IMG/VR virus record: IMGVR_UViG_3300035670_000110
Coordinates: 24,609-88,608 of that record
Length of the DNA stretch: 64,000 nt
Reading direction: 5' to 3' (one strand)
DNA from: a virus
Shown: positions 24,901-62,578 of the stretch, piece after piece
Layout of the letters: every line of letters starts with the position of its first letter
Position numbering within the stretch: the first letter of the stretch is position 1
Program-made: the position numbers and the translations under genes
Notes under the pieces: generated by a model
The model's input: only the letters and a program-made list of their open reading frames with translations
Database searches by the model: none
What the model was told of the DNA's origin: nothing

Positions 24901-27900
24901 CATAGCGGCTGCGCCCATTACAGCCCCGGAAAGAATTCCTAGTTTCATTGCTAAATCATTTGAAGCCCCACCAGCCATACTCATACTTCCGACAAGCATT
25001 GATGATGCAAAGGCAATGTTCATCAACCCCATGCCTTTCATCATTTGCGGTTGATTTTCAGCGGCCTGGCGGGAGGATGCCAGAGACTCCTGCGGCCCTC
25101 CAGTTTGAGTTGGGCTATTCATTAAAGCGGTCCATCTTTGTTGAAATGCTTGTGATGTAAGGTCTGGAGTTTTTATTTTAATGGGAGAAACAGACCCATC
25201 TCTATTAATCATCGCCCCATTGTCTGCATACATGGGCTTCGGGATCATGACTTCATTGGGCATTACTCTTAGCATTGGGCCGCGAGGAGTCATTACAAAC
25301 GGTCTTGGGCCTGGTCCAGATGGACGCTGCATGGATGGAGGAACTGCACCTGGACCAACAATTCCTGGTCTTCTCCCCGAACTTCTAGCAGGTGGTATTG
25401 GAGTTGTGCCCATTACCTGTGATTCTGTTAACGCTATAGATCTTCTGGCGGCGGCGGGGATATCTCCACCAGCCGCCTTAATCGCTTGAGCAACATTAGT
25501 AGCAATCGGAAGTTCTCTAGGCAAAAGCCTCCCTCCGCCAGTCAGCCTTTCATCTATTATTGCTTTAAACAAAGGTGCCCAAATTCTTTTTGTGGGTCCG
25601 TCTTTACCCCAGATATTTTTGTTATCTGGCTGATCTAGCATAGATCCTATAATTTTTTCCATCAATCTCAACTGTGACGGTGTTTTTGGATGTCTAACTT
25701 CTATATCACCTGTTAGTGGATCTATTTTAAGAAGAGAGGGTCTTGAATCTCCCCTTCTTTGTATTTCTGAAATTATATGTCTCCCGGCATTGCCTCGGGT
25801 CAGATTTTCCAATGCCTGATTTTCTGCGCCAGATGAAAGTAAAAGGTTTGCTGGATCAAAATACTTTACGCCACCACGAATATCTTTTTCATAATGGGCC
25901 AAGTGTACTTTTGTTGCATCTCTTAATTGTGTATCGTTTTCAAAAGAGATTCCTGCTCTTCGTGCAATTTCTTGCACCACCTCTGCCATTCTAATCTTCT
26001 GTGCTTCATGAACTAAGGCGTCTCTCATTTTATCGGGGGTCGATGTTTTATGCCCTCCACGACCAGCGGCAGGTTCGACAATATCTCCAAAGGCATATCC
26101 ACGAACCTCACCACGATTCATTGCTCTTAAAAATTCAACGTTTCCTCTGGCGGCTTCTTTTCTTACAACAAATTCGCCTGGCTCAAGGAGGGCTGGAACT
26201 TTGTCCCCTCCGCCGTAACCGCCTGGAACTTTTTCTGGACTGGTAGACCCCATCTGTCTTCTTATAACAGTCGGTGCCCGTCCAGCGGGAGCAAGTGATC
26301 CGGGCGCAAAGAGACCGGGGTTGGTTTTCATTAAATATCCTAAAGATCCTGAATAAGCAGACATCACACTTACTAATCTTTTAAGGGCAGCCTCTTGTGT
26401 CAGAAATGATGTTGTTAAATTATCAACGCCCAGCCTGGCTGCCATAACGTCGGCGGTAAGTAATTCAAATTTTTCAAATCTCAATCCTGCTATTTTTGCA
26501 CCCATTCTAACTATCATCATGCTGAATTTAATTCCATTAGCAATAAGGTTTCCGAATAAACCGACAAGCATGACTACAGGTCCTGCTAAAGCAGTTAATA
26601 AGATCGCATACTTACTAAAGTTTTTTACCGGCTCTGGAAGTGCCTGAAAGAATTCCATAAAACTCTTAATTCCCCCACCAATACTAGAAAGAACTGGAAT
26701 AAGAGTCTCTGTTAGCAGATTTCCAAGTGGAATTAAAGAGTTTTTCAAATTTTCAATAGTTCTTTGAAATCTCATTGAAGATGATTCTTGTAAAGCCTTT
26801 AATTCTTTATTTGCAATTCCGGCCAATTCTGTACTGCTTGCAGAGGCAAGTTCCATAACAGAAAGAGTTTGAGAACCTTGTCGGCGGAGGTTGGCAAAAA
26901 GAGCCGCCATACGAGCAAATTGATATTTTCCAAAGACTTTTTCAAGAACTTGTGCTCTAGAAAAATCATCAAGTCCTTGCAGGGCATCTTGCAGCCCAAA
27001 AATCATAGGCAGCAATTCCCCTCTACCGTTTTCAATAATATTTTCTAGGGAAACTCCAAATCCTGCTGCTACTTCTTTTGCCTGTTTCGTAGGATTGATT
27101 AATCTACCAAGTCCAGATTTTAGAGCGTTTGCAGCCTCACCCGCAGAAACGCCTCCTTCGCGCATGGCAACAAGCAGGAGTGCCATATCTTTAATGTCTC
27201 CTCCAAGAGCCTGAATGACAGGGCCAACTCTTGGAATGGCTCCTGCTAAATCCTGAAGGTTGGTCGATGTTTGATTTTCTACGGCATTCAAGAAGTCAAT
27301 AGACTCTGCCAATTCATTGGTATTTAGTTTAAATGCATTTTGAATTGACAGGGTGGCACGCATTGCCTCTTGTCTTTCAACTTCACCTAAGACAGATAAT
27401 CTTGTCGTTTGTCTTACAGATGAAAGAAGTTCTTCTCCCTCTTTACCCGTTTGAGCAATATCTGCGGCCAGGGCTGCTGTTTCTTTTGCAGCAATTCCAT
27501 AAGAAGAACTAATTTCATATGCGAGTTGTTGAACACTGTCGCGCATTTTTTTAGTAGAATCTTCTACTGTATTAACAAGATCTGCTCCGTAAACTTTTTC
27601 AAACCTAGTTAATTCTTTATCAATTTCGCGGAATTGTTTTGACACAAGTGCGGTAAACATGACCAACGGAAGGGTGAAGCCTACCATCAACTGGCGACCA
27701 GTCCACTGAGTGTTTTTACCAAAGTTTAGAAGTCTTTCACTTCCCCCGCGAACTAATTCGTTAAAAATAGAGAATTTTTGAGACGCCATAGCAGCAGAAG
27801 TGCCCATTGCTGACAAGGCTGTTGGAGTAAGAAGAGCACCAGTGGCAGCGCCGCCAGCAGTGCCCCCCATAGGAACCAGCATAGATTGTTGCATTCTTAC

Positions 27901-28239
27901 CTGCTGTGCGGCAAGTTGCTTCATCATGCTATTTTGTTTTGTATATCCGGCAATCGCTTCGCGGAAGTACTGCCTCATTGTAAGTTTTTGACGTTGTAGT
28001 GCTTTGCCAAAATCATCTACTGCTGTAGTACTTTTTACCATTTGGGTGGTGAATCCACCAATTTGTCCAACATTTGTCATAAATGTGGACGCCAAAGATG
28101 CTTGCGCCTTTAATGCGCTTTTATCTAAAGTATTAAATGCAGCCGTAAGACCTGCAATATTGCCAGTAAGTGCCTTTATTTGAGCCTGTGCTGGGGAAAG
28201 GTTGGCATTATATGTGATGGTAGAATAAATATTAGCCAA
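18961..28239 (-). CDS. Tape measure protein with metallopeptidase-like, lysozyme-like and NlpC/P60 domains (3092 aa)
   Basis: Sets tail length and carries cell-wall enzymes for DNA entry. The N-terminal third fits TP901-type tape measures (FGKNTQWTGRQLMVGFTLPL; AAGFGVSLENII). Small-residue-rich hydrophobic spans occur near 525-560 and 1140-1260, and long coiled coils near 1590-1860. A putative zinc-peptidase motif TAHEGGHALD has HExxH at 2400-2404. A goose-lysozyme/SLT-type domain has RESGG with E2702 plus GDYGLFQINKRSYG. An NlpC/P60 domain has C2858 in WGCSGL and H2933 in RHIAIYAG. A motif of the form G-x-x-SDxIPAxLSNGEYVVKAxxVxKYG occurs twice, with a degenerate third copy near 695. At about 1.5 angstrom per residue the full length would give roughly 0.46 micrometre, less if the C-terminal domains are not stretched. 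Confidence 0.95.
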   Translation of the reverse strand: MANIYSTITYNANLSPAQAQIKALTGNIAGLTAAFNTLDKSALKAQASLASTFMTNVGQIGGFTTQMVKSTTAVDDFGKALQRQKLTMRQYFREAIAGYTKQNSMMKQLAAQQVRMQQSMLVPMGGTAGGAATGALLTPTALSAMGTSAAMASQKFSIFNELVRGGSERLLNFGKNTQWTGRQLMVGFTLPLVMFTALVSKQFREIDKELTRFEKVYGADLVNTVEDSTKKMRDSVQQLAYEISSSYGIAAKETAALAADIAQTGKEGEELLSSVRQTTRLSVLGEVERQEAMRATLSIQNAFKLNTNELAESIDFLNAVENQTSTNLQDLAGAIPRVGPVIQALGGDIKDMALLLVAMREGGVSAGEAANALKSGLGRLINPTKQAKEVAAGFGVSLENIIENGRGELLPMIFGLQDALQGLDDFSRAQVLEKVFGKYQFARMAALFANLRRQGSQTLSVMELASASSTELAGIANKELKALQESSSMRFQRTIENLKNSLIPLGNLLTETLIPVLSSIGGGIKSFMEFFQALPEPVKNFSKYAILLTALAGPVVMLVGLFGNLIANGIKFSMMIVRMGAKIAGLRFEKFELLTADVMAARLGVDNLTTSFLTQEAALKRLVSVMSAYSGSLGYLMKTNPGLFAPGSLAPAGRAPTVIRRQMGSTSPEKVPGGYGGGDKVPALLEPGEFVVRKEAARGNVEFLRAMNRGEVRGYAFGDIVEPAAGRGGHKTSTPDKMRDALVHEAQKIRMAEVVQEIARRAGISFENDTQLRDATKVHLAHYEKDIRGGVKYFDPANLLLSSGAENQALENLTRGNAGRHIISEIQRRGDSRPSLLKIDPLTGDIEVRHPKTPSQLRLMEKIIGSMLDQPDNKNIWGKDGPTKRIWAPLFKAIIDERLTGGGRLLPRELPIATNVAQAIKAAGGDIPAAARRSIALTESQVMGTTPIPPARSSGRRPGIVGPGAVPPSMQRPSGPGPRPFVMTPRGPMLRVMPNEVMIPKPMYADNGAMINRDGSVSPIKIKTPDLTSQAFQQRWTALMNSPTQTGGPQESLASSRQAAENQPQMMKGMGLMNIAFASSMLVGSMSMAGGASNDLAMKLGILSGAVMGAAAMMQMFSGKNVMGNFLGLGSLGTKMQASKAAIGPTSNLATGAASKGNLLFRAGGAVSMLGGPIGIGIAAALATTVGGYMMYQKAAEEARKRAVASFEDPAKTAEFFGIQITDVTEKLKQASSQVGEIGEIDENLKKAVQQDYGNLIEKIKYGGAEAGSRELALAFNKMITSGLSEEQAVDAVKAIAAEAGYTGGQAYAIGLKNGLFEQKTAEELASAMANLFDPEKQKLTIDVTQQGLDKLENTLNGAERFSGVIAQNLENSVGDLSTGLTSFITNLSIPLQILRAATDFEAFENIFDKDKMQETIDNAANVTRQIHQMQTNIEEMADISAESIVKITEIMFENFKEAPKETMEAMDQIIKIAKESTAMAFDPQPIKDFINEIDPVRGAILAAMIGMDEELALQVSKALSAGMSIQDIIDALMVGGPLKLEAEIVITTNRAELQDQINDIAAGLTESAGSLIDKQIGFTEELIQNSQEGLEKLDRQYERYERKQRRLRNQSVRDSEKTIESLEKQKEAISDAAEEERERFEEKIEGLNEEKDRINESTENYINSIQKRQKVDNFYSNQRKTALSALEKLASGDVFGFLQDRQQMSQDAQQFAYDEQIKGIEEARDREIDSIDKTIETEQEKQEQFEKDTQTRIDLINDQIEAEQEAADKAEELYERRLRNFKRRQREERKSFRDTINEQTTKLADLRVIQSQNDAGQITSAKEVTKRLGEEFGKRYMEEMSIILKLRYQRFLDDAIRKQLESGLTVDIEAAQREAASLISGDYFALMGGRDVTGRPRTGEDPLQTILNWIQTVSTPQTEDYRSPGQTQPPGYSPPPPRQNNNNTPSGGGSGFLPNWQTTYSGNEITGPDGKRYIWNPATQRYDVKFNSGGYVSGPGGPKSDSIPARLSNGEYVVKASSVKKYGVGMMNSINQARFAEGGYVSADRLEQQSQQRQISNNTANQIGGYAGQVMRQPYYGYSKSTTPPPAPTTKPVTAGTGLINYGVPQNLDYNIVRPDPVAESILGEMWNGLRQGFSATLSLLGLGGVRTLASTRPTPYGIRSNTSAQFSLPSWVMGVTQEEYERDYADRAALDAALFAASFAPIPIPKGISGLLSRFKTAGVMRNYSSGVKSEKPFLYRNDPKYQEGVDQSEVLINYLNSLPEKELPPGINPYYVGLNISPEIQSAYRKYLSHFIYNDNKAQNLKRDIYWGSHSNLVSMKNFVPEEGYIFGKDPSMDSMLSQLYGPAAPGTVVNKSSWDNVVDQIFNGHQLQGGVDNPYTGTQINSTPGDIFELMGVTAHEGGHALDFNNLFSRGAQQWPASSSERTYGSLEAAAEANRIRTMSILFSKIGVSPGSHNVVPYFKGYVPGNSYGNTPSFKATFLYNSAKHAFNKNSPFYWGDQLSIGEKTAGLLRIGKDLGSSTIQYPYRNNIVPMINSNRARNGLSPLTEDQVETGALYYTTAVGTGTVLGGTGAALALSRLITSLSEDNAEMRLLEINEKATGFAEGGLVGQADPRFVYGRQLRETPVEDPNNGAGSGEPGSPPSTPYGDGGATGTPIFNESVLAGLGHTLTTAQNVLTYLDAGGWPRDLHRLAWTIAMRESGGQPGKYSDHINNPSMYSEGNGDYGLFQINKRSYGSQPWFNISQLLDGNYNSRMAYEHVSNRGQTFLPWAMLKNYNGTSAGFDWSEYNGRPWWGVSTETNTNNLWPAFLGYRGATTPSQDSGSNPDGVLALEFAKQQLGEPYSLVNVNGPDSWGCSGLTAMSYNLGVPDGYKKYGLLSYSESQINSSRIVARRISGRPGDGSQPPIPSSSLKIGDLLYYSNTGLAPSGRHIAIYAGNDQVIEAGSPVKYTSLSSPWHRMFFDRAGTPIAKYASGGFVAGRGGPRSDMIPAMLSNGEYVVKAGAVNKYGRGMLDQINAGNFGMSSMQDPKFSVPVMPSNVSGVSNNYGGSKSNVKIIINGASGKSATAIANKVASMINSSNNRRNHSRSL

Positions 28240-37771: not shown

Positions 37772-38620
37772 TTAAGGGTTATTTGTATCGAAAATGTTCA
37801 CAAAAGTAGTAACTTTTTGTACTGCGGGGGTATTTATAAACCCTAAATCTGTTTTTAAAAAGAATGTTGTTCCATATCTAGAGCCAAAAAGAATTCTTAC
37901 AAAATCTCCTACTGAACTACTAATTGGGATAAATTGTGATGATGCACTTAATTCATAAATTTGATTATCAGTTATTGATAAAACTTTATCCCCTTCAGTG
38001 ATATTAAATCCATCGATAAAAAGATCATCATTGATAAGGACAGATGCAGAAACATATTCTAAAAGACTCTCTTCGTTAGCGACACTAACATCGAAAAGGT
38101 ATCTGGACTGATTTTTAATCGGCTGATAAACTATACCACTGGATGCCGAAATAAAATTATCTTCTACATAGTCTATAACATTAATAGAAAATGACGCTGT
38201 ATCTGATACCACTAGTTTTGCTGTTCCAGCACCTGTAAACTCTTCATGTAAATATTGTGGATCTGAGTCCAACAAAGATGAATCCATAATATATAGATTT
38301 TGTATATTAAAATTTGCTCCAGAGTAGTCTCCAAAACGAATGTTAAACGAATCATTGCTGGAAGTTAATAATTTTTCGGGAAAGGTGAAGGTTAAATGAG
38401 ACCATTTACCTTGAGAAATAAAAGATCCTGATTGTCCGTTAACGTAACAATTTACGATACTATCGTCAAATACTAGTTGACCCGTATTATTATTAATACT
38501 GGCAGAAAACAGTAATTTTGAGTTAGAAGATGACGAAAATATATTTAAAAAATTATAAAAAGAATCTGTATCATCATTTAATCTAACAAAACAACCGACT
38601 GAACCAAGATATTTGATCAT
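37772..38620 (-). CDS. Putative LamG/beta-sandwich structural protein (282 aa)
   Basis: The N-terminal 130 aa look like a concanavalin/LamG-type jelly roll: GCFVRLNDDTDSFYNFLNIF, NSKLLFSASINNNTGQLVFD, QGKWSHLTFTFPEKLLTSS and FNIQNLYIMDSSLL. Similar wording occurs in the 1085-aa protein at 52992-56249. The C-terminal part is unassigned. It is a likely fibre or capsid-decoration component, encoded just before the portal region, 18 bases after the next upstream gene. Confidence 0.65.
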   Translation of the reverse strand: MIKYLGSVGCFVRLNDDTDSFYNFLNIFSSSSNSKLLFSASINNNTGQLVFDDSIVNCYVNGQSGSFISQGKWSHLTFTFPEKLLTSSNDSFNIRFGDYSGANFNIQNLYIMDSSLLDSDPQYLHEEFTGAGTAKLVVSDTASFSINVIDYVEDNFISASSGIVYQPIKNQSRYLFDVSVANEESLLEYVSASVLINDDLFIDGFNITEGDKVLSITDNQIYELSASSQFIPISSSVGDFVRILFGSRYGTTFFLKTDLGFINTPAVQKVTTFVNIFDTNNP

Positions 38621-38637
38621 ATTGTTATTATATCCTA

Positions 38638-39387
38638 TTATATGTATCTTCCAGAAGAAAAATATTCTTCTATGTTAAATATAACATTTTTACATAATTC
38701 ATGATCAAGTTCTTCTATAATCTGATTTTTATATAAATATGCTTTATTAGAGAAACCAAATAAATTAATCAAAGACTCCAGATAATTTTTATAAACAAAC
38801 ATTACCTCACTGTTAGGATTTGCCTGAATTGGATCAAATTTATAAGAATCTGACTCTAAAAACATCAATGCGTTAGAAATATATTGTTTATAGCAAATGT
38901 CAAAGTCATACGCTAGTGGTCCGTCGATCAAAGAATTTTTCTCTGCGTACATATTAAAAGAATCTTTATGTGCTATCAAAGATCCGTCTAATGGCCATAC
39001 TTTATAGGACATATGGTAGTCGTAGTAAAAATTTTCTAATATTTCTTCTTTTATCATTGAATCTATAATTTTATTTATCTGACTTTCTTCTTTTATCATA
39101 TACATTTTATTTGATGGTTTTATAAAACATTTATGCTCTTTGCATAACTCTATAGATTGATGTAATGAAAACGGTGGAATTATAATATAATCTATTAAAA
39201 TTAATATTTCTTCATTTTTAATAGTTTCATTGATTAGTTTAATATAATTAATGTCTTTATCGAAATCGTAGGATGCTTTTTTTACATTAAACCCGATATC
39301 ATTATAATATTTTTTATAAAATAAAAATTTTTCTTCTTCATGAAAACCATCTACATAGGGTATATAAACATTATTTGTATACGACAT
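38638..39387 (-). CDS. Hypothetical protein of the modification block (249 aa)
   Basis: Rich in Tyr, Ile, Lys and Glu. It starts MSYTNNVYIPYVDGFHEEEK and has an alternating strand-helix pattern (EILILIDYIIIPPFSLHQSI) reminiscent of a Rossmann or GT-A half. No DxD or other active-site motif can be assigned. It overlaps the glycosyltransferase before it by 17 bases, so it may work in the same pathway, perhaps as a sugar-nucleotide or acceptor partner. That role is speculative. Confidence 0.68.
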   Translation of the reverse strand: MSYTNNVYIPYVDGFHEEEKFLFYKKYYNDIGFNVKKASYDFDKDINYIKLINETIKNEEILILIDYIIIPPFSLHQSIELCKEHKCFIKPSNKMYMIKEESQINKIIDSMIKEEILENFYYDYHMSYKVWPLDGSLIAHKDSFNMYAEKNSLIDGPLAYDFDICYKQYISNALMFLESDSYKFDPIQANPNSEVMFVYKNYLESLINLFGFSNKAYLYKNQIIEELDHELCKNVIFNIEEYFSSGRYI

Positions 39388-40483
39388 TAAGATTTGGAAC
39401 CTCCCACCATGGTGATGTTTTTTTATCTACAATATTAATTCCAGAGTAAGATAAAAATCCTTGAATTGATCGTGGAAGATATCCAAAAACTTTTTCTTTA
39501 TTTTCTATTAGTTTCATATTTATTAAATCATCTGATAAACAAGAATTTATTTTATTTAAATTATAATCTACTGAGTTTTTTATATAATTGTTATAAAAAT
39601 ATAATTTTTCTTCAAAGGATGTGTAACCTTCTTCATGCTTTTCTTCATATTTTCTAGAATTTACAACATCATATAAATGAAAAAATAATTGTGTTTTAAT
39701 CCATACTAAATTATATCCTCTTGCATAAGAGAGGGCCGATTGATAAAATTCTTCTCCCCAGAATTTAATATCTTTATCTAAATTAATATTATATTTTGTT
39801 AGCCATGGATCTGCTTCTGTAAAATAAAAATGTGCAGCAATTTTTTTTGCTGGTAGGTACTCATTATCTATTATTTTATTTTCAAAGATTTTTATTGATT
39901 CTTTATTCATATCTTTATCGTTGGGAAAGGGAAAAACTGTAGAATTTACTAAATCATGAGATAATTTTTTATAAAAATCAAAGAACTGCCATCTATTGGC
40001 TACGTCTCTTTTAGATTTTATAGTTTTATCTCCATCGAAATATTCACCAACTTCTTCATTAATTTTATAAGAACTTAAATATGTAGTTATTACTCTTCTT
40101 TTACCAAAAATTTTTCTAGAATTTTCATACAGATCTATAAGTTGTTCATCCCATCCCTGTACAAAATCAGTATGCGAGTCTATTGATAAAAAATATTTTT
40201 CATTATTGTAATGTTTTGTTGGAGCAATCCTCCCCTGACCAACACCAGGGTATAAAAACCATGGTTGTATATCATATTTTACTTTTTTAAAATTATTATC
40301 CAAACCATTTTTTATATGATGAAAAAATGGTTTAGAGTTTTCTTTTATATCATTACTCTTCCAAAATATTGTGGTGCCTATAGAAATATCGTCTGGATTA
40401 GACGAATAGTCATATGCCCGCTCAACAGTTGAAAGATATTCATAATCATTCATTGTTGGGACGCACATAAATATTTTATTCAT
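39371..40483 (-). CDS. GT-A glycosyltransferase, GlcNAc-transferase-like
   Basis: Predicted sugar-nucleotide transferase of 370 aa. Motifs match the phage/protist GlcNAc-transferase group: FMCVPTMNDYEYLSTVERAY at the N-terminus, GVGQGRIAPTK, YFLSIDSHTDFVQGWDEQLI with the metal-binding DSH at 102-104, and later FWGEEFYQSALSYARGYNLV. I chose the ATG at 40483 because the upstream gene ends at 40476 and the two overlap as ATGAATAA. It lies in a row with oxygenases and fibre genes, consistent with glycosylation of a virion protein or cell-surface glycan. Confidence 0.87.
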   Translation of the reverse strand: MNKIFMCVPTMNDYEYLSTVERAYDYSSNPDDISIGTTIFWKSNDIKENSKPFFHHIKNGLDNNFKKVKYDIQPWFLYPGVGQGRIAPTKHYNNEKYFLSIDSHTDFVQGWDEQLIDLYENSRKIFGKRRVITTYLSSYKINEEVGEYFDGDKTIKSKRDVANRWQFFDFYKKLSHDLVNSTVFPFPNDKDMNKESIKIFENKIIDNEYLPAKKIAAHFYFTEADPWLTKYNINLDKDIKFWGEEFYQSALSYARGYNLVWIKTQLFFHLYDVVNSRKYEEKHEEGYTSFEEKLYFYNNYIKNSVDYNLNKINSCLSDDLINMKLIENKEKVFGYLPRSIQGFLSYSGINIVDKKTSPWWEVPNLNVVYK

Positions 40484-41189
40484 AATTTTTTTTGACCCAC
40501 ATATGCTTTCTATATCCTCCATAAAAATGATCAAAAACTCTTTTATGGATTTTCATTCTTTCTTTTTCTATATCTTCATATTTCCTGATCTCTGATTTCC
40601 AATTTTCTCTTTTAAAGAAAAACATTTGATATAAAGGGGTTCCTTTAGGAATAATCCCCTCAAATCCATTTTTTAATAGGAATGGAACACTGCCTCCAAT
40701 CCACCATCTATCAGTATCTATTATTCCATCGATTGTCCTAAATGGAAGATCATATTGATTTAATGGGTGGGTATAGTATGTAGACCATCCTCTTGGAGTT
40801 CTTGGTTCCCAGTGAGTGTACCAATTTAAATGATCATCTGGATTATAGTAATAATTTTTATCCTTTGGGATAATTCTATTAGGACCCCCTCTAGATAGAA
40901 TAATATTTTCTACTTGACTGGAAGCATTAATAGAAATTTTTCCATTGGTATCAAGCCTGACACTTATATCACACCAGGCCTCTTGTATATATCCTGTTGT
41001 AAATGTATCTAAAAGAGGCATACAATTTTTTTCAGTTGAATCTGCTCTCTCACAACTAATTGTTGGAGTATGTCCTCCAGCAAAGGGAGGTAAATTTTTA
41101 TACCATTCAGGAATATAGTTTTTTGCAGGCTTGGGTGGATCTATATAATCTGATGCGTATTGACTCTGGGGAATCCATTCAACTATCAT
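40476..41189 (-). CDS. Triplicated unknown family, copy C (237 aa)
   Basis: The third of three tandem paralogues. Shared features are an N-terminal PxxWYKNLPP (here IPEWYKNLPPFAGGHTP), CxPxLDxxxxGYI, a WExxTPxGxSxxYTHP block, GxIDTDRWW and GFEGIIPKGTPLYQMFFFKR. The conserved strand series and the closing IIPxGTPxxQ look like a jelly-roll fold. I associate this pattern with the uncharacterised family DUF6065, from memory and unchecked. Function is unknown. It overlaps copy B by four bases. Confidence 0.8.
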   Translation of the reverse strand: MIVEWIPQSQYASDYIDPPKPAKNYIPEWYKNLPPFAGGHTPTISCERADSTEKNCMPLLDTFTTGYIQEAWCDISVRLDTNGKISINASSQVENIILSRGGPNRIIPKDKNYYYNPDDHLNWYTHWEPRTPRGWSTYYTHPLNQYDLPFRTIDGIIDTDRWWIGGSVPFLLKNGFEGIIPKGTPLYQMFFFKRENWKSEIRKYEDIEKERMKIHKRVFDHFYGGYRKHMWVKKNYE

Positions 41190-41926
41190 GAGTAATCCTT
41201 TCTACTCCAACATTCTTTTTTATATCCAGAACTTGCGTGTCTTCTTACTTTAGCCTGCAAAACATTATATTCTTTTTCTTCCATAAATCTTTTATCACTA
41301 ACCCAATCTTCTCTCTTAAAAGGAATAATACTCATCATTGGAGTTCCCATTGGGATTATGCCTTCAAACCCCTTTTTAATAAAAAATGGATGGTTCCCTG
41401 TGACCCACCATTTATCCGTGTCCATCACTCCAGATAAGGTATAGAATGGTAATTCTGGCCTATTTATAGGATGTGTATATAAACAACTATACCCCTCTGG
41501 AGTATTTGCCTCCCATGCAGTTTGCCATACAAATTCAATTTGGTAATAATCTTCTGGTACGGGCATTGATAGATGATTAGAAGGACCTCTGCTACCGACT
41601 ATTGAAAAATAGTCATGACTTTTTACGCTAACACTACTTCCATCGAAATTTTTTTCCACAAATACATCGCACGGTAGTGTCATTATATATCCAATCGTCC
41701 AACTATCTAAAAATGGCATACAGTGCTTTAAAGTAGAGTTATGGTTTCCAGACCCCTCAACGAAATGTGGAGATTTCGTAAAGTGAGTTGGAATGTTTTT
41801 GTACCACTCTGGAAGCAATAATTTTGCAGGAACTGGTGCATCAGAAATATCAAAAATCGTTTCATTTCTTGCAACAAAAGATATATCGTTATATTCTTTT
41901 TTTACCTTTTTATTTCTCTTAAACAT
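41186..41926 (-). CDS. Triplicated unknown family, copy B (246 aa)
   Basis: A close relative of copies A and C. Aligned landmarks are LLPEWYKNIPTHF, HCMPFLDSWTIGYIMTLPCD, ANTPEGYSCLYTHPINRPEL, VMDTDKWWVTGNHPFFIKKG and GIIPMGTPMMSIIPFKRE. The His, Asp-Thr-Asp and Trp positions are the best conserved and may form an active or ligand site. It is one base from copy A and four bases overlapping copy C, a pattern fitting local duplication. Confidence 0.8.
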   Translation of the reverse strand: MFKRNKKVKKEYNDISFVARNETIFDISDAPVPAKLLLPEWYKNIPTHFTKSPHFVEGSGNHNSTLKHCMPFLDSWTIGYIMTLPCDVFVEKNFDGSSVSVKSHDYFSIVGSRGPSNHLSMPVPEDYYQIEFVWQTAWEANTPEGYSCLYTHPINRPELPFYTLSGVMDTDKWWVTGNHPFFIKKGFEGIIPMGTPMMSIIPFKREDWVSDKRFMEEKEYNVLQAKVRRHASSGYKKECWSRKDYS

Positions 41927-42621
41927 TATTTAAATTCCTTCCTGTTCCACCAGTTTAATTTATATCTATTAATGAATGTTCTATGATGAAAGTTTTTTAA
42001 TTTTTTATATTCTTTTTCTTTAAATTCTTTTTGATCTGATTTAAAAGAATCTCGTTTAAACGGTATTACTTGAACCATTGGTGTGTTATAAGGTATAACT
42101 CCAGTAAAATTATTATTTAAAAAAAATGGGAAGTTTATTGTTAATGGGAACTCATCTGTGTCAACGATACCCTCTATTATTTTAAATGGTAAATGATGTC
42201 CTATCGGAGTTATAAAAAGACAACTATAACCTTTTGGCGTTTCTATTTTCCATGGATTTGTCCATTTAAACGCTTCTTTTTTATAAAAAGATTGAATTGG
42301 ATAGTATGGTAACTGATCTATTGTATGACCTTCTACTGCAGGTATTCTAGGATCGGTGAGGCTCCATGTAACACTGTTTTCAGAAAAATGAACGTCCGTC
42401 CATGTTTTTATAATATATCCAGTAGACAGTGCGTCTAAAACGGGGATACATTTTTTTATTGTGGCGTTTGCATTTCCAGAAGAATAAGTTTTTTCACCAT
42501 CAACATAGGGGCTAGTTTTTTTATACCATTCTGGTAAATTCTTAATTGCTGGGCTAGGAAATTCTGCTACACCGTTTAAGTCACTCTCTGTTAATATAAA
42601 ATTTATTTTTTTATCTAACAT
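41926..42621 (-). CDS. Triplicated unknown family, copy A (231 aa)
   Basis: The first and most divergent of the three copies. It keeps NLPEWYKKTSPYVDG, KKCIPVLDALSTGYIIKTWT, IETPKGYSCLFITPIGHHLP, IVDTDEFPLTINFPFFLNNN and GVIPYNTPMVQVIPFKRDSF. The THP histidine and the WW after DTD are replaced, so it may bind something different. It overlaps the upstream glycosyltransferase-like gene by seven bases. Confidence 0.78.
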   Translation of the reverse strand: MLDKKINFILTESDLNGVAEFPSPAIKNLPEWYKKTSPYVDGEKTYSSGNANATIKKCIPVLDALSTGYIIKTWTDVHFSENSVTWSLTDPRIPAVEGHTIDQLPYYPIQSFYKKEAFKWTNPWKIETPKGYSCLFITPIGHHLPFKIIEGIVDTDEFPLTINFPFFLNNNFTGVIPYNTPMVQVIPFKRDSFKSDQKEFKEKEYKKLKNFHHRTFINRYKLNWWNRKEFK

Positions 42622-43844
42622 TTTTTATTCCAATGTAAAGAATTTTCATAGGTTGAAAAATTGTATAACGATATAAAACTATTTACAGCATCTACAAAAG
42701 AGTTGCTGGAAAATATTGACCTAGGTTTAAATTTTAGTTTTTCCCAGTCTATAGATAATAAAATATTAAATTTTTCATCATCATAAACATTTTTTTCTAG
42801 CATTCTTTTTATTTCATTTATTCCTTCTGACTGTAAATAATCTTCTAGATTATATAAATCTGATGGACTTTTTTGATTTTCCCCGGAATATCTAATATCT
42901 TCGTATAATTGATAGACTGGTATGAATCTAAGCGTTATTACATTAAAATCATTAATTATAAAATTAATAAATGAATAAAAATTAAACTGACCTTCATCAA
43001 CTAGTGATTTTGGAAATGAATTATTTTTAATATAATTTTTTGCACTAGTGAAAATAAATTTATAAGATAGTCCAGTACTCAATGCAATATATTCATCTTT
43101 AATAAACTTTCTACTATTAAATCTGGGGAAATGAAATGTTTTTAAAAATTCATCATCTATTTTTACATTTTCTTTTTCTATTAAATACTGACTAATATCA
43201 GAACCGACTTCTTCTTGAGATTGATCAAAGTTTTTATTATTATCATTCACAAACTCTGTATATCCTGATACTGGTATCCTTGACCCATCATATTCTTCTC
43301 TTTGCATAGACATTTTTGTTTTATGGTTTGTAAAATATACAAAACCTTTAACAACATCATCATGCGGTAAATAATTCCTTGGCTCTGCTGTAATCACATT
43401 TTTTGGCCCCATGTTGTTTTCTATTTCTGTAAACTGTTTAATTAATATACTGTCCCAGTGTGGGTCGAACTCGCTTCTTGATGAAACGGACATATAATAA
43501 TCTTCTTTATTATATTTTGAATCGGCAATTTTTTTTAATTGTCCGAAAGTAAGTTTATTACTTAATTCTACTGTTTCTATATCCATGTTATTTTTATTAT
43601 TTTCATAGATATGCATAAGTTCAGTTGCTATATAATCGTAATTTAAATCATTATCAGAAAGTGCGATTGATATGAATATATTGTCTGGCCTTTTTGCATT
43701 TTTAAGAATAGAGTTAACTGTTCTTACAATATACGGATCTTTATAAGAAACTATAGATATAAAGATTGATTTTCTTGAATTTTTATAACCATTTGTATTA
43801 AAAATAGTTCCTTCATATGGCTCATATTTCATTGGTATATTCAT
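42615..43844 (-). CDS. Glycosyltransferase-like protein with altered DSH motif (409 aa)
   Basis: The N-terminal half follows the GlcNAc-transferase-like group: SIFISIVSYKDPYIVRTVNS, then KLTFGQLKKIADSKYNKEDY and YYMSVSSRSEFDPHWD. At the position of the metal-binding DSH found in its two relatives in this window it has SSR (121-123). The aspartate is therefore missing and the protein may be an inactive or binding-only paralogue, or use another metal ligand. The C-terminal 150 aa are unassigned. It lies between an oxygenase and the triplicated family. Confidence 0.72.
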   Translation of the reverse strand: MNIPMKYEPYEGTIFNTNGYKNSRKSIFISIVSYKDPYIVRTVNSILKNAKRPDNIFISIALSDNDLNYDYIATELMHIYENNKNNMDIETVELSNKLTFGQLKKIADSKYNKEDYYMSVSSRSEFDPHWDSILIKQFTEIENNMGPKNVITAEPRNYLPHDDVVKGFVYFTNHKTKMSMQREEYDGSRIPVSGYTEFVNDNNKNFDQSQEEVGSDISQYLIEKENVKIDDEFLKTFHFPRFNSRKFIKDEYIALSTGLSYKFIFTSAKNYIKNNSFPKSLVDEGQFNFYSFINFIINDFNVITLRFIPVYQLYEDIRYSGENQKSPSDLYNLEDYLQSEGINEIKRMLEKNVYDDEKFNILLSIDWEKLKFKPRSIFSSNSFVDAVNSFISLYNFSTYENSLHWNKKC

Positions 43845-43846
43845 AA

Positions 43847-44383
43847 TTATTTTATCTCACAATCTAAAAAGAACATGTGGTTTGGCTCAGCAAAGTGCAT
43901 GAATAACATTAAGACTTCATTGCCTTCGGTAAATTCTGGTCTTGAATGAAATTGATCTTCTCCGTAAAAACATAACGCCTGATTATTTTTAAGAATATAT
44001 TCTTTACCCTCTACAATAATCGGCCAAGGTTCTTTTGAAGACAAACAAATGTCAAAGGTATAGGTGCAGGCGTTTTGATCTTTATGATTTTCTAACCTAG
44101 AATTATATTGATTGTAATATGCTAAAAGAGAATATGTATGTAGAAGAGTGTCACTATCAAACTCTTTCCTAGCCCGATCCATATTCAGTAAGCCGATTCT
44201 ATCGCAACAATCATTTTCATTAACATATCTATTATGAAGTGGCTCAAAGTTCCAAAGATTTTTAGGAATAGAGTTTGCTATAGACATTATTTTAGAATAT
44301 TCTTTATCATTAAAGAACTTATCTATTATCCATGGATCTTTTATCTTTGCCAACGATTCACCGCCCAGGGAGGGCCAAACCAA
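43847..44383 (-). CDS. 2OG-Fe(II) oxygenase-like protein (178 aa)
   Basis: A double-stranded beta-helix hydroxylase candidate. The motif HKD (H100, D102) in NSRLENHKDQNACTYTFDIC and the distal H146 in YGEDQFHSRPEF form the HxD...H iron facial triad. R148 is a possible 2-oxoglutarate anchor. The frame opens at 44383 and overlaps the preceding gene by 43 bases. A TTG at 44353 with GGCGGTGA upstream is an alternative start that trims the overlap. It probably hydroxylates a protein or small molecule, with the substrate unknown. Confidence 0.78.
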   Translation of the reverse strand: MVWPSLGGESLAKIKDPWIIDKFFNDKEYSKIMSIANSIPKNLWNFEPLHNRYVNENDCCDRIGLLNMDRARKEFDSDTLLHTYSLLAYYNQYNSRLENHKDQNACTYTFDICLSSKEPWPIIVEGKEYILKNNQALCFYGEDQFHSRPEFTEGNEVLMLFMHFAEPNHMFFLDCEIK

Positions 44384-45012
44384 GTAACTATAGCATATTT
44401 ATATCCATCAAAAACTGGCCTAGCGGCATGTCTATAGGCATAATTAGATGGAAAAAGTGCTAATGCTGGAGAATCTGGGTTAACAGTATGGTTAAAATTA
44501 CTAAAATATGTTCCCCCACCCTCATATTCGCCAGGGTTTATATATATAAGTCCAGAAAGAACTCTATGCTCCACCCCAGGTCCATAATCTGTATGAACCT
44601 TGTACTGTCTTCCCGGTGAATATTTTAACACCTGCAACCCCTCATCAAATGCTATTTCTAGGTCATATTTAATACAATAATGTCTGACAAAAAGTGACAA
44701 TTGATCTTTAATAAACTGAACGGCACTATTTATTTGACATAAACATGGATTGTTGTGTATATCGTTATGCTCAAATATCGACATGGTAAGATTAGATCTT
44801 ACACTTCCACCATCATTACCGTCCCCGATTAACGCATTAGAATATTTAATGGGGCAACTGGGGTTATTATTTGCTTCTTCAAATGCTTCAATTAGTTTTT
44901 TAGAAATTTCTTCTGTAAAAATATTTTCATATAAATCTATAGCCCCTGATGATTCTGTCACCTTTATATTTTCAGGTAAAATAATTGTATTTTGAGTTTC
45001 TACTAAGCTCAT
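44341..45012 (-). CDS. 2OG-Fe(II) oxygenase, prolyl-4-hydroxylase type (223 aa)
   Basis: The clearest hydroxylase of the block. YSPGRQYKVHTDYGPGVEHR holds H140 and D142. INPGEYEGGGTYFSNFN is the strand region after it. ALALFPSNYAYRHAARPV gives H195, and the K205 in FDGYKYAIVTWFG is the usual 2OG-binding position. The full HxD...H...K set is typical of the P4H group, which oxidises proline or lysine side chains in proteins using 2-oxoglutarate, O2 and iron. It lies next to collagen-like fibre genes, so a fibre target is plausible but not shown. Confidence 0.9.
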   Translation of the reverse strand: MSLVETQNTIILPENIKVTESSGAIDLYENIFTEEISKKLIEAFEEANNNPSCPIKYSNALIGDGNDGGSVRSNLTMSIFEHNDIHNNPCLCQINSAVQFIKDQLSLFVRHYCIKYDLEIAFDEGLQVLKYSPGRQYKVHTDYGPGVEHRVLSGLIYINPGEYEGGGTYFSNFNHTVNPDSPALALFPSNYAYRHAARPVFDGYKYAIVTWFGPPWAVNRWQR

Positions 45013-45020
45013 TTTTTATC

Positions 45021-45695
45021 CTATCTTAAATAGGAGAACAGTAAATTTGAATTCTCCTCCAGACCATTTTCTTCGGCAAGAAAATCTTTTCCCCCGTTGA
45101 AAAATGTTGTAAGTGCTACTTTTCTACCCCTTATTATAGTATTATGTTTTTTAGAAAACAAATAATTCGCAGGATAGAATAATATAGTTCCTCTAGTCCA
45201 ATCAACATACTTTAAATTATTTAAATATTCCCACTCTATAACCCCGCCAGAATAATCATCATCTATTAAAATTTCTACAGCAACCTGTCTGCTAAAGGGG
45301 GTGTTATTTATATTACCTTCTTCATCCTGGAATGATTTATTAGGATTATAAATAAAAGATTTCTCACCAGACAGTTCTATGTCAATAAATATATTTTCTT
45401 GCCACTGAATACTGTGGATAGTTTCTTCATAAATATCGCAATATTTAGCAAAGTAATACATTATACCTTTTTGTATATTTTCCGCTGTTTCTTTTTTATT
45501 AATTTTGTCTAATCCATAAAAAAAGGTATTTTTGACTTTATCTATTAAATAATATTCTGGGTATTTATTAATATGATTATGAACAGAAACGATATCCTCA
45601 ATGTCATTTATTGATATATCATAAACATTATTATATGCAACAACTCCTGGATATAAAATAGTTTCTTTACTATCCCGTGAAAAAGAATTTATCAT
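45021..45695 (-). CDS. 2OG oxygenase paralogue with degenerate iron site (224 aa)
   Basis: It aligns by eye with the neighbouring P4H-type enzyme. FIYNPNKSFQDEEGNINNTP corresponds to the HxD strand, VAVEILIDDDYSGGVIEWEY to the GxYxGG strand, and RGTILFYPANYLFSKKHNTI plus GRKVALTTFF to the C-terminal core with H184 and R191. The first histidine of HxD is not evident (SFQDE replaces it). It may be inactive, a regulatory partner, or ligate iron differently. It overlaps the upstream gene by 26 bases. Confidence 0.72.
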   Translation of the reverse strand: MINSFSRDSKETILYPGVVAYNNVYDISINDIEDIVSVHNHINKYPEYYLIDKVKNTFFYGLDKINKKETAENIQKGIMYYFAKYCDIYEETIHSIQWQENIFIDIELSGEKSFIYNPNKSFQDEEGNINNTPFSRQVAVEILIDDDYSGGVIEWEYLNNLKYVDWTRGTILFYPANYLFSKKHNTIIRGRKVALTTFFNGGKDFLAEENGLEENSNLLFSYLR

Positions 45696-46185
45696 CAGCA
45701 GAGTTATCTTCCTTGTATTGTTTATAAATAATTATTCTATCTGTAAACAATATTTTATCTTCTTTATTATTTACAGCAGAAACTATTGTAAATTCATATT
45801 CTCCAAATTTATCTATTGATAAATCTATTTCATAAAAAACTTTATTTATTTTATTCATTTTTTTAGATAAAATAAAATTTTTATTTTTTAAATTATTTTC
45901 ATCTAACTGATAAAGATTTATTGTTAACTCATCATAACCGCTATTGATAGCAAACTCATCAATAAATCTTATTTTAAAATCTTCTGACTCATGAAACACT
46001 AAGAAATCATTATCCAGCATTCTGTATTCTGGTATATTAATTTCCTGAACTGAATCTATATTTTTTATTAGCCCAGAAACTATATCTGACTCCCCATGAA
46101 TAATTTGATGAAAATTATTATGAACGGCAAAATTAATATGTTCATCTAGATCCTCATTTTCTGGAATATAAAGATATCTTAACAT
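45670..46185 (-). CDS. Hypothetical 171-aa protein
   Basis: No family recognised. It starts MLRYLYIPENEDLDEHINFA and is beta-rich and acidic, with a long central strand series (FKIRFIDEFAINSGYDELTI) and a C-terminal immunoglobulin-like run (GEYEFTIVSAVNNKEDKILF). It is packed between a fibre-type gene and the degenerate oxygenase. A role as a fibre accessory or oxygenase partner is a guess from position. Confidence 0.65.
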   Translation of the reverse strand: MLRYLYIPENEDLDEHINFAVHNNFHQIIHGESDIVSGLIKNIDSVQEINIPEYRMLDNDFLVFHESEDFKIRFIDEFAINSGYDELTINLYQLDENNLKNKNFILSKKMNKINKVFYEIDLSIDKFGEYEFTIVSAVNNKEDKILFTDRIIIYKQYKEDNSADDKFFFTG

Positions 46186-46189
46186 TTTA

Positions 46190-46855
46190 TTATACTACAA
46201 ATTGTAGAATTCTCCCATCTTCATATCCAGATACATCAAAATCTATGCCGCTTGGCTTTTCCCTAGAAGAACAATAAATTATAGCACCGCCGCCTGTAGT
46301 ATAAAAAGATCCATTATTAAATCCAGATGCATAAATTGTTCCGTTACCGCTGACTCTCCTTGCCGAAACTATTACAATTCCGCCGCCAGGATTAGTTCCA
46401 TCGCCAGCGCCTCCGGTAACACCCAAAGCAGATTGCTGAGATGCATTTAATATGTATCCATCAACTGCCAGGTTTGGATCATAAAAATATGATGCACTTC
46501 CAAAAGAAGAATCAATTTCTATAGAAGAATAACTGGCACTATCCCCTCCTAAACTATTAGAAACTGATGCTGTCCCGCCGCCAAATATTGAACCTGCCTG
46601 AGACGATCCATTAATTAAACCAACACTTGTATTTGGATCTTGACTAGATGAACCTAGAAAAATCATATTATTTCTTACAAAGATTTTATATCCATTAGTA
46701 TCTATATGTATTCCATTATTTATTTTTAAATTATTCCAATACATATCTCTTGTTAATGAAAAATTTGCCGATGCGGTAAAATTACCGTCTTTTCCAGATC
46801 CATATATAGGGTCTGGAAAAACTCTATCGTCTGATGCATAACTTTTAATTGGCAT
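46190..46855 (-). CDS. Glycine-rich fibre protein, short paralogue (221 aa)
   Basis: It shares the whole N-terminal domain with the 568-aa collagen-like protein just before it: GSGKDGNFTASANFSLTRDM, YWNNLKINNGIHIDTNGYKI, FVRNNMIFLGSSS, GSIFGGGTASVSNSLGGDSA. It lacks the collagen-like and Tyr/Asn-rich inserts and ends with a short GGGIVIVSARRVSGNGTIYA unit. It looks like a duplication of the framework of the larger gene, without the low-complexity part. Such glycine-rich beta-structured proteins are often adhesins. Confidence 0.75.
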   Translation of the reverse strand: MPIKSYASDDRVFPDPIYGSGKDGNFTASANFSLTRDMYWNNLKINNGIHIDTNGYKIFVRNNMIFLGSSSQDPNTSVGLINGSSQAGSIFGGGTASVSNSLGGDSASYSSIEIDSSFGSASYFYDPNLAVDGYILNASQQSALGVTGGAGDGTNPGGGIVIVSARRVSGNGTIYASGFNNGSFYTTGGGAIIYCSSREKPSGIDFDVSGYEDGRILQFVV

Positions 46856-48551
46856 TATCTATGGCCTCATTCTTAATAATTATTACAGTGCCAGAGGTTG
46901 GTGTTCCAGCATCACCAGTGCCCGCAGCGGCTCGAACCTCTATACTATCTGGAATATTTGACTCTGTTACAACAAGAACAACCCCTCCGCCGCCAGAATA
47001 TCCGTTAAGACCTGGAGAACCTGGAAGACCGGCGCTACCTATTCCTCCTGCACCACCCAACCCACCAGCGCCACCGGCACCTCCTGCAAAATATTCAGCC
47101 GGTTGTATGGAAAACTGATCTGGTTCAAACTCGGTGTTATAGGCGTAAGAAGTATTTCCTGGAACTATTGTATTATATACAGTGTATGAATTTCCAGGTT
47201 GAAAATAATATCCAAATGCTGGAAAATATGCAATATATGCATAGATATTTCCAGCAGTATAGAATGTATTTCCTATTACCTCATAAGATGGTCCGGGGGT
47301 GTAATATACCGTTCCTGGGTTATATCCAAGAAAAGTAAGGAAAAATTGATTTCCCGGAACTGTAAAGGCAGTTCCGGGGTTTTCGTTACTGGGCCTCCAT
47401 CTGACAGATGCTGGACCAGGAGTACGAGGATTAAATGTTGGTCTGTTATATGCAGTTGTTGGACGGTTGTATGCAGGAGTATTGTATATATATGCTGTTG
47501 GACTATTGTATAGAGTTACTCTATTGTAAGAATAAAATGGTCTATTATATGATAAAACTGGACTATTATATGCAAAAGTTCCTTGTGATCCTATAAAATT
47601 ATATCCTGGCTGTGTTGGAGAATTATAAAGAGTAGCCGCATTTCCTCCAGTTGTTGGATTAGTAAAAGAATATTCAACTGAATAATTATATCCTGGAGTT
47701 GAAACGTATAAATATGATGCGCTGTAGAAATCTGGTGCAGGCTCCCCAGGACTTCCTGGGGAGCCTGGTGGACCTGGAAAACCTGGACCTCCTATTCCAC
47801 CAGGATTTCCTGGAGAACCAGATTCTCCATCTGCTCTAATAATTCCAGAGCCAATGATATTTCTTGCTGAAATTATTACGACTCCACCGCCTGCACCACC
47901 GTCTCCTCCTAATCCTCCAGATCCACCTAGCCCAGCAAACCCTGGAGATCCAGCAGATCCTGGAAACCCTGAAGACCCCATGCCACCGGATGCACCAACG
48001 GTATATTCAAATCCCGGCCTAGATCCAGGTGATCCTGGACTTCCCGGACTACCTAATTCCCCTGCAGTAAATGATCCAGACTGTCCCGCAGATCCACTTT
48101 CCCCTATAGCACCGCCAGATCCACCCATAAGAAATCTAAGAGTTCCTTCTACCGCATCAAACTTATAGCCAGCGATTGCTTGAGAGAAATTATAAAATTC
48201 TGCTTCTCCAAAAAAGTTTTCTCCTGGGTTTAAGCCTCCGTCGCCTCCAAGAGTATCGGACGCTTTAATTCCTGATGGAGCGCCACCTAAAATACTTCCC
48301 GCAGAAGTTTTGTCTGACAATCTTCCAATAACAGCAGAAGAATCAGCCATATTTAGGGTATCTTTAACGAAAACCCTATAACCATTTGTATCAAGTTGGG
48401 CGGAACCTAGCACAGTTAGATTGTTGTAATACATGTCTCTGTTAAGTACAACCGTTCCAGTAATAATTACATTTCCGTCAGTCCCTGGGCCATATACCGC
48501 CAACCCTCCGCGACCATTAAAGTTAGTAGGAACAATATCTTGTATCGACAT
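46845..48551 (-). CDS. Collagen-like, Tyr/Asn-rich fibre protein (568 aa)
   Basis: Probable virion adhesin. Residues 1-140 match the shorter paralogue. Glycine-rich, collagen-like or polyglycine-II-like runs lie at about 142-178, 189-223, 242-272 and 489-522, with units such as GSPGSPGS and GFPGPPGSPGSPGEP. Several place Pro in the Y position. Between them, about 285-475, is a segment rich in Tyr, Asn and Pro with repeated YNSP, YNRP, YNTP and YNPG units, for which I know no named family. The GGGVVIISAR unit recurs as GGGVVLVVTE. The prolines are potential targets for the nearby P4H-type oxygenase. Polyglycine-II lattices of phage adhesins are an alternative to a triple helix. Confidence 0.82.
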   Translation of the reverse strand: MSIQDIVPTNFNGRGGLAVYGPGTDGNVIITGTVVLNRDMYYNNLTVLGSAQLDTNGYRVFVKDTLNMADSSAVIGRLSDKTSAGSILGGAPSGIKASDTLGGDGGLNPGENFFGEAEFYNFSQAIAGYKFDAVEGTLRFLMGGSGGAIGESGSAGQSGSFTAGELGSPGSPGSPGSRPGFEYTVGASGGMGSSGFPGSAGSPGFAGLGGSGGLGGDGGAGGGVVIISARNIIGSGIIRADGESGSPGNPGGIGGPGFPGPPGSPGSPGEPAPDFYSASYLYVSTPGYNYSVEYSFTNPTTGGNAATLYNSPTQPGYNFIGSQGTFAYNSPVLSYNRPFYSYNRVTLYNSPTAYIYNTPAYNRPTTAYNRPTFNPRTPGPASVRWRPSNENPGTAFTVPGNQFFLTFLGYNPGTVYYTPGPSYEVIGNTFYTAGNIYAYIAYFPAFGYYFQPGNSYTVYNTIVPGNTSYAYNTEFEPDQFSIQPAEYFAGGAGGAGGLGGAGGIGSAGLPGSPGLNGYSGGGGVVLVVTESNIPDSIEVRAAAGTGDAGTPTSGTVIIIKNEAIDNAN

Positions 48552-60917: not shown

Positions 60918-61862
60918 GTGTCTAGTATCTATGTAGCCATACCAAGTATAAAAGACAGTGAACTGGTAAAAACCATCATTAGGTGCTTAAACAAATCTAG
61001 CAAACTTAATGAAATTAACATAGGGGTGGCTGTCTTTTTATTTGAAGAAGAGTTGAACGACCCACTGTTTGATCTACCATATAAAAATGTAAAAATAAAG
61101 AATTTTGATAGAAACTATTATAAAGGTGTTGGAATAGCCAGAAAAGAATCAATGTCTTTTTATAACGGAGAAGACTACATATTAATGATTGATTCTCATT
61201 GCGAGTTTAAAGAAAACTGGGATTTAATTCTTATAGATAAATTAAAATATCTAAAGGATAAAAAGGGGTTAATAACCTGTTATCCTCCAGAATACAAATA
61301 TATTTACAAAAACTTTACAAATTTAAAAAATGATTGGAAAAATATTTATGTATCTAATTTTGTTGAAGGATATATAAAACAAAAATTTGATCACGAACCT
61401 GATTGTATAGCGTGTAATGAATTTTCACCTGTTCCTTTGTGGGAAGAAAAAAGAATAGAGAATAAAGATAATGATTTTATTTTAAATAAAAAAATATCGG
61501 CTGGAATGTTGTTTGCCGATAAAAGATTTGCAGAAGAATACGAAATAATGATTCCATACAATTACTCATTCTTTGAAGAAGAACTTATTATGTCCATAGA
61601 GGCATTAAATCTTGGATGGACATTTTACGCCCCCACTGATTACGTTCCAATAGCACATCTATATGCAGAAGACATTAATGAGTTTGGTGGAGATAGGTCT
61701 GCTCTAAAAGAGTGTGAAGTGGTAGAACTAAACACTAAACAAAACTATCTAAGTTATGTCCTTGATCCTAATAATAAAGATAAGATTATAAGATTTGAGA
61801 AACATGCTGGAATAGATATACTTAATCGTGCTGAATTCGAAAAGCGAAAAGTCGAAAAATAG
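60918..61862 (+). CDS. GT-A glycosyltransferase, GlcNAc-transferase-like (314 aa)
   Basis: A relative of the enzyme at 39371-40483. SIYVAIPSIKDSELVKTIIR is followed by GVGIARKESMSFYNGEDYIL and LMIDSHCEFKENWD with the metal-binding DSH at 92-94, then FFEEELIMSIEALNLGWTFY and VPIAHLYAEDINEF. The start is GTG with CGGAG four bases upstream. It is the first gene of the rightward arm and separate from the other sugar genes. Its target may be a virion protein, teichoic acid or DNA, and the sequence cannot decide. Confidence 0.85.
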   Translation: MSSIYVAIPSIKDSELVKTIIRCLNKSSKLNEINIGVAVFLFEEELNDPLFDLPYKNVKIKNFDRNYYKGVGIARKESMSFYNGEDYILMIDSHCEFKENWDLILIDKLKYLKDKKGLITCYPPEYKYIYKNFTNLKNDWKNIYVSNFVEGYIKQKFDHEPDCIACNEFSPVPLWEEKRIENKDNDFILNKKISAGMLFADKRFAEEYEIMIPYNYSFFEEELIMSIEALNLGWTFYAPTDYVPIAHLYAEDINEFGGDRSALKECEVVELNTKQNYLSYVLDPNNKDKIIRFEKHAGIDILNRAEFEKRKVEK

Positions 61863-61894: not shown

Positions 61895-62578
61895 GTGAAG
61901 ATTTTAGATAAAGGATATATCAATCTTGTTAATGTTATGGGTTCTGATTTAGATGTTGTAAACTCTGCAAGAGTTAGTTTTGATAAATATGTAGATACCT
62001 TAGAAAATAAGGATATTAAACTAATTAATTATCTTATTGAACATAAGCATGATTCCGTTTTGAGACATTGTTCCATGTCCTTTGAAGTCTACGCCCCACT
62101 TTTCGTTGCTCGCCAATGGTGGAAGCACCATGTTTCTAGCACACATGTGGATGATGCGAACGGCTGGAATGAATCTTCTCGCAGATATGTTACCGAAGAG
62201 CCAGAGTTCTACATTCCTGGGGACTGGAGGGGCGCTGCGGAGAATAAAAAACAAGGTAGTAGTGATCCTGTGGACTCACATATTTCCGACAAGCACAACC
62301 GGCTTTTAGAGTATTTTGTAGAAACTGGAATCAGTGCCTATACCGCCGCCATGCAAGACGGAATAGCAGTAGAACAGGCAAGATTATTTCTTCCTGCTTA
62401 TGCTATGTATGTGAGATGGAGATGGACGGCTTCTCTCAATGCACTCCTCCACTTTATTTCATTACGATTAGATAACCATGCACAATGGGAAATACAACAG
62501 TACGCCATCGCGGTGGCGGAAATGGTGAAATCTCATTTCCCTCATACCTATGAAGCATGGGAGACATATCGTGTCTGA
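61895..62578 (+). CDS. thyX: FAD-dependent thymidylate synthase
   Basis: A 227-aa flavin-dependent enzyme that converts dUMP to dTMP using NADPH and methylenetetrahydrofolate. VLRHCSMSFEVYAPLFVARQ and WNESSRRY (91-98) are the family landmarks. The usual RHRx7S signature reads WWKHH (75-79), with about seven extra residues (THVDDAN) before WNESSRRY. The usual Arg, His, Arg set is thus changed to Lys, His, His. The start is GTG with AAGGAG. It overlaps the next gene by eight bases. Confidence 0.92.
   Translation: MKILDKGYINLVNVMGSDLDVVNSARVSFDKYVDTLENKDIKLINYLIEHKHDSVLRHCSMSFEVYAPLFVARQWWKHHVSSTHVDDANGWNESSRRYVTEEPEFYIPGDWRGAAENKKQGSSDPVDSHISDKHNRLLEYFVETGISAYTAAMQDGIAVEQARLFLPAYAMYVRWRWTASLNALLHFISLRLDNHAQWEIQQYAIAVAEMVKSHFPHTYEAWETYRV

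Follow-up and report, generated by a model that had tools for sequence, protein, structure and literature searches.

A phage tail cassette linking a glycine-rich fibre family to a prolyl 4-hydroxylase-like oxygenase and putative tailoring enzymes

Why should a phage carry oxygenases and glycosyltransferases (GTs) directly behind a fibre gene? The question is raised by a stretch of 64,000 nucleotides from IMG/VR virus record IMGVR_UViG_3300035670_000110 (positions 24,609 to 88,608), referred to here as the window, which represents the terminal 64 kb of the 88.6-kb record. Its minus strand contains a cassette of 13 genes (48551 to 37772), with neighbours -59 to +17 bp apart, located between tail genes on one side and the portal gene on the other. 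A long glycine-rich fibre is followed there by a prolyl 4-hydroxylase (P4H)-like protein of the 2-oxoglutarate (2OG)-Fe(II) oxygenase type, by three members of the family phrog_7084 and by two GTs. Judged from gene content and its conservation, the cassette on balance probably encodes a fibre together with enzymes modifying that fibre in some form.

The linkage of these genes was analysed in viral contigs that were scanned with the fibre alone, by means of two motifs, so that only fibres containing them could be detected; the 80 best matches were retained, and 76 loci were obtained. Homologues of the long fibre were found in 75 of these 76 fibre-selected loci, and a short paralogue in most of them. 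In all 64 loci of sufficient length, a redundant set, P4H and phrog_7084 genes both follow the fibre on its strand, with P4H no more than 4.4 kb away. Removal of near-copies and addition of three metagenome-assembled genome contigs gave 46 loci, of which 46 contain P4H and 45 contain phrog_7084; for fibre, P4H and phrog_7084 this bears out the co-occurrence across phages that an initial annotation of this DNA had proposed as a check. As a control, 32 fibre-less tail regions located via an unrelated tail gene were searched with the same profiles, and both families were present in nine of them (Fisher p=1.6e-11 versus the fibre loci). Loci selected by phrog_7084 and lacking the fibre contained P4H in 5 of 50 cases. 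The portal scan took in mainly short contigs. P4H and phrog_7084 are generally common tail-region genes, yet P4H is obligatory with the studied fibre family. The short fibre and P4H yield trees with the same four clades. Synteny of the whole cassette from fibre to portal was found in the independent contigs L003, L004, L086 and L094, and partial synteny in L006/L092 and L077/L091. Within the phage record, the P4H and phrog_7084 families occur only in the cassette.

All open reading frames (ORFs) of the initial annotation were verified at their coordinates on the minus strand, and its description of a tightly packed, same-strand gene set holds. It had missed the short fibre, a third GT60-type gene at 60918-61862, and the identity of its triplicated family. 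The genes follow one another in this order, the variable segment of the long fibre being given a line of its own:

46845..48551, minus strand: long glycine-rich fibre, 568 aa, with an N-terminal beta domain and Gly-rich tracts at residues 144-287 and 490-525
residues 288-478 of the 46845..48551 product, minus strand: hypervariable, YN[SR]P-rich middle of the long fibre
46190..46855, minus strand: short fibre paralogue, 221 aa, aligning with the long fibre
45670..46185, minus strand: small protein, possible fibre chaperone
45021..45695, minus strand: degenerate 2OG-oxygenase homologue, HxD lost in the window clade
44341..45012, minus strand: P4H-like 2OG-Fe(II) oxygenase with intact catalytic residues (PF13640, phrog_61)
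43847..44383, minus strand: second HxD..H oxygenase-like protein, 178 aa
42615..43844, minus strand: PF11397 (GT60-type) glycosyltransferase homologue, DxH motif lost
41926..42621, minus strand: phrog_7084 copy 1, predicted dUTPase-like fold
41186..41926, minus strand: phrog_7084 copy 2
40476..41189, minus strand: phrog_7084 copy 3
39371..40534, minus strand: PF11397 (GT60-type) glycosyltransferase, DSH intact
38638..39387, minus strand: uncharacterised protein, conserved in the window clade
37772..38620, minus strand: last gene of the cassette

The small protein 45670-46185 has no Pfam match; an ORF of similar size and place, between fibre and P4H, is present in every clade inspected, and a role as fibre chaperone is possible. 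Comparison with relatives, which begin about 11 and about 17 residues later, places the true starts of 43847-44383 and 39371-40534 probably near residues 12 and 18, respectively. The tail/structural region of the window also includes an ORF of 3092 aa (18961-28239, minus strand).

The product of 44341-45012 matches PF13640 with 46.7 bits (cut-off 27), and its profile is nearest to the solved bacterial P4Hs (PDB 5hv0 and 3itq), with an E value of about 8e-17, or roughly 1e-16. Residues H140, D142, H195 and K205, which form the HxD..H..K motif, are invariant in 37 aligned relatives, and by these sequence features the protein is a P4H-like 2OG-Fe(II) oxygenase with an intact active site. Such invariance over 37 diverse sequences points to selection for catalysis. 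The initial annotation had listed three 2OG oxygenases; this enzyme and 43847-44383, which retains H100xD102..H146, keep the HxD...H signature, while 45021-45695 does not, since PNxS or a similar sequence replaces HxD in every member of the window clade. Marine homologues of the latter retain HSD or HGD, and an intact homologue, L099 13318-14043, matches PF13640. No oxygenase ORF longer than 300 aa was found in 164 sequences; on this ground a fibre-P4H fusion was rejected, as was a fused hydroxylase-glycosyltransferase of the PLOD/LH3 type, the two activities being assigned to separate ORFs. In eight other tail regions (L281, L282, L293, L302, L262, L270, L291 and L292), five to six P4H-profile ORFs are clustered per region; these regions lack a glycine-rich fibre of the studied family.

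Both GTs of the cassette match PF11397 ('GlcNAc'), which we take to correspond to CAZy family GT60 (Gnt1). The protein encoded by 39371-40534 scores 67.4 bits (cut-off 21) and possesses the DxH metal motif (IDSHTDF); that of 42615-43844 also exceeds the cut-off, but carries SSR (SSRSEF) in place of DxH; at this site D[SA]H is present in other members, among them the second-clade GTs. The two GT-A-like proteins noticed earlier thus both belong to PF11397, although only the first keeps DxH. PF11397 was found in none of the 14 control genomes versus three copies in the studied phage. Judged from these motifs, each step in the window clade, oxygenase and GT, seems to combine an active with a degenerate copy, and it may be guessed that the degenerate copies act in heterodimers.

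A precedent for such a pair of enzymes exists, as the GT60 enzyme Gnt1 glycosylates hydroxyproline produced by a P4H (PMC6939170). In this Skp1 pathway the P4H PhyA acts before Gnt1, a GT60 N-acetylglucosamine transferase that modifies the hydroxyproline, so that two enzyme kinds are shared with the cassette. The latter differs in being encoded by a phage, in having a fibre as presumed substrate, and in having one GT and one oxygenase degenerate. By analogy with PhyA/Gnt1, hydroxylation of proline followed by capping of the hydroxyl by GT60 is plausible, if short of probable.

The triplicated family described in the initial annotation is present in three copies as stated, and can now be assigned to phrog_7084 with a dUTPase-like fold. 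The model has a predicted local distance difference test (pLDDT) score of 95, and every one of the 50 best Foldseek hits is a dUTPase (probability 0.97-1.00), the best E value being a weak 2e-3. The profile matched one dUTPase weakly (probability 10.7, E 0.003), and a single homologue reached 18 bits against PF00692 (cut-off 22) along a motif-3-like stretch; the family does not pass the PF00692 cut-off or contain the full dUTPase catalytic motifs. DUF6065, for which no literature was found, is weakly matched by 30 of 62 relatives. On the basis of the model, a dUTPase-like trimer could be assembled from the three tandem copies. Members of phrog_7084 also occur near virion genes in haloarchaeal tailed viruses (L001:7911-8795, HF1/HF2 relatives), where the opposite strand carries a glycine-rich ORF at a distance of about 1 kb.

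The location among tail genes, the arrangement of phrog_7084 in three tandem copies and the loss of catalytic motifs in two homologues could indicate that the oxygenase and phrog_7084 serve the virion as structural or assembly proteins (chaperones) and have become independent of catalysis. This is highly improbable given that the P4H catalytic residues are invariant in the 37 diverse sequences.

The four clades differ in the enzyme that accompanies this core. The window clade has two GT60-type GTs and the second clade one GT60; the marine clade has an FkbM methyltransferase gene immediately before phrog_7084; and the fourth clade, comprising 20 of the 46 loci, has a tryptophan halogenase (PF04820, E about 1e-103). 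Histidine makes up 0-0.3% of the long fibre in the GT60 clades and 2.2-2.9% in the marine FkbM clade, with a median of 6.75% in the halogenase clade. Histidine content and extra enzyme, both read from sequence, fit enzymes that are matched to their fibre, and the clade-wise enzyme pattern suits a scheme in which the fibre is hydroxylated and then capped.

Further variation is seen within the same phage lineage. Contig L225 encodes P4H, two phrog_7084 proteins and GT60 behind a Cys/Asn-rich fibre (14453-15520), whose tip consists of repeated Cys/Asn-rich units such as NWNASNCN..GGxC. L189 (2151-8845), of the same portal lineage, contains in the same slot two Gly_rich_2 fibres, a tryptophan halogenase and one phrog_7084 gene; P4H is present, and two oxygenase-like genes are on the opposite strand. 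L227 (same lineage, 20164-20991) and L224 have a sulfotransferase (PF13469) in the slot, without P4H and phrog_7084. From the contents of L225, L189 and L227 the slot looks like an exchangeable site for a fibre plus tailoring enzymes, in which collagen is not the shared factor. In view of L225, a collagen-specific role is not supported.

Instead, the targets of the enzymes might be host surface glycans, or their product a small molecule, and they would merely share a late operon with the fibre. Several observations weigh on that side or against modification of the fibre. In jumbo cyanophages similar enzyme kinds are grouped and were interpreted as serving polysaccharide decoration or metabolite synthesis (PMC7824862). 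A third PF11397 copy (60918-61862, plus strand; 92.9 bits, DSH intact) lies outside the cassette. P4H and phrog_7084 are frequent beside other tail genes, being found in 12 and 14, respectively, of the 32 fibre-less tail regions. Differences in composition and enzyme are at the level of clades, representing about four events, and hence are not independent. The proposal that any glycine-rich protein pairs with P4H was rejected, with odds of 0.88 in the tail-region control. This alternative is nevertheless unlikely, since the tie to one fibre family is strict, the trees match, the extra enzyme and the fibre composition change together, and GT60 enzymes of known acceptor act on proteins. The jumbo-cyanophage amino acid/sugar modification clusters share 2OG oxygenases, an amino acid halogenase, methyltransferases and GTs with the cassette, but were assigned to capsule decoration or a metabolite, whereas the cassette studied here is tied to a fibre family. 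The third GT gene adjoins one for Thy1 thymidylate synthase (61895-62578).

What kind of fibre would serve as the substrate? The long fibre has five Gly-X-Y runs with a total of 46 triplets; the longest run comprises 13 triplets, a length reached by none of 5000 shuffles of the protein (shuffle mean 3.4). The Gly-X-Y runs with proline mostly in Y, as first described, are thus real, but homology to collagen is below threshold, the PF01391 score being 15.8 bits against a curated cut-off of 27.2. In an AlphaFold2 single-chain model pLDDT exceeds 90 over residues 145-275 and 485-545 and falls below 50 over 288-475. Since a lone collagen strand is unlikely to be modelled in this way, the confident Gly tracts suggest an intramolecular bundle of the polyglycine-II (PGII) type, and the model makes a PGII bundle as in S16 gp38 likelier than a collagen triple helix. 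Structure prediction of the runs, recommended by the initial annotation, argues in this single-chain form against a triple helix.

Comparison of the long fibres of the window and L003 gave regional identities of 0.86, 0.69, 0.44 and 0.81, the middle, with 44% versus 69-86% for the flanks, being the fastest-evolving part. Glycine-rich motifs thus flank a hypervariable segment, as in gp38-type PGII sandwiches. The T-even gp38 adhesins (Salmonella phage S16, PP01), with their PGII sandwich and hypervariable loops (PMC12892980), are alike in Gly-rich flanks and G-x-P-G prolines; they differ in that neither sequence nor Foldseek revealed homology of the long fibre to gp38 structures, and in that the studied fibre is about twice as long and is linked to P4H, phrog_7084 and tailoring enzymes. 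A Foldseek search of the fibre against PDB returned no matches. In BFVD the best fold matches to the 46845-48551 product (E 6e-10 to 4e-8) come from Orpheovirus and Pandoravirus proteins labelled 'collagen-like', and a glycine fold other than a triple helix may be common to them and the fibre. All relatives are uncultivated, and two long-fibre stretches and two short-fibre relatives had no tblastn match among named phages (50,697 records).

Support for the initial reading, in which a genuine triple-helical, collagen-like fibre is hydroxylated at Gly-X-Pro before being glycosylated, comes from the position of proline and from these giant-virus matches. Of the 16 tract prolines in the window fibre, 15 are in Y and one in X, and across the fibre family the Y:X ratio is 128:12, compared with 29:313 for the remaining Gly-X-Y proteins in the searched contigs; as triplets are not independent, the per-protein counts are 20:1 versus 5:28. 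Phage collagen-like fibres (EPclPs) likewise have Gly-X-Y tracts, but favour proline in X (PMC3368898), reportedly without prolyl hydroxylation, whereas the studied fibre has proline in Y and is linked to P4H. Proline in Y was nevertheless rejected as proof of P4H action, because gp38-type PGII adhesins without P4H lean the same way (11:3 at GxPG) and Gly_rich_2 fibres are not separated by P4H presence (18:6 versus 11:6). X-Pro-Gly was likewise dismissed as a universal target, its enrichment being 2.8x in the window and below 1 in several P4H-bearing relatives. The Gly-X-Pro-Gly count is zero in many P4H-bearing relatives, which argues against Gly-X-Pro as the general substrate. Together with the single-chain model and the sub-threshold PF01391 score, these results make a collagen helix improbable. 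The initial proposal of a hydroxylated, sugar-decorated fibre thus retains a fibre with its own enzymes, in 46 of 46 loci and with a GT60 precedent; its collagen helix and a general Gly-X-Pro target are not supported.

Modification of the fibre could proceed as follows. The phage would encode a pair of host-recognition fibres together with their own modifying enzymes, acting inside the infected cell. P4H would hydroxylate the long fibre, most likely at prolines, prior to folding and assembly, and in the window clade the single GT60 with intact DxH would then place a sugar on the hydroxyl. The homologues without motifs and the dUTPase-fold phrog_7084 proteins may serve as partners or hold the substrate. 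Decoration of the hypervariable tip would affect receptor specificity or stability, or the evasion of host defences. More tentatively, the whole may be a self-contained fibre-decoration module, composed of a glycine-rich adhesin, an obligate P4H, a dUTPase-fold partner and a swappable capping enzyme (GT, methyltransferase or halogenase).

Aquatic viruses commonly carry prolyl hydroxylase genes, whose use has been called cryptic (PMC9301287). The strict tie to one fibre family supplies a concrete candidate substrate for a viral P4H. If the fibre is indeed modified, the phage would possess a P4H/GT60 protein-modification pair parallel to the protist Skp1 pathway, and sequence-based prediction of host range would be blind to such modifications. 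Phages would then widen the chemistry of receptor binding with hydroxyl, sugar, methyl or halogen groups, and the host-recognition tip would be diversified chemically as well as by sequence.

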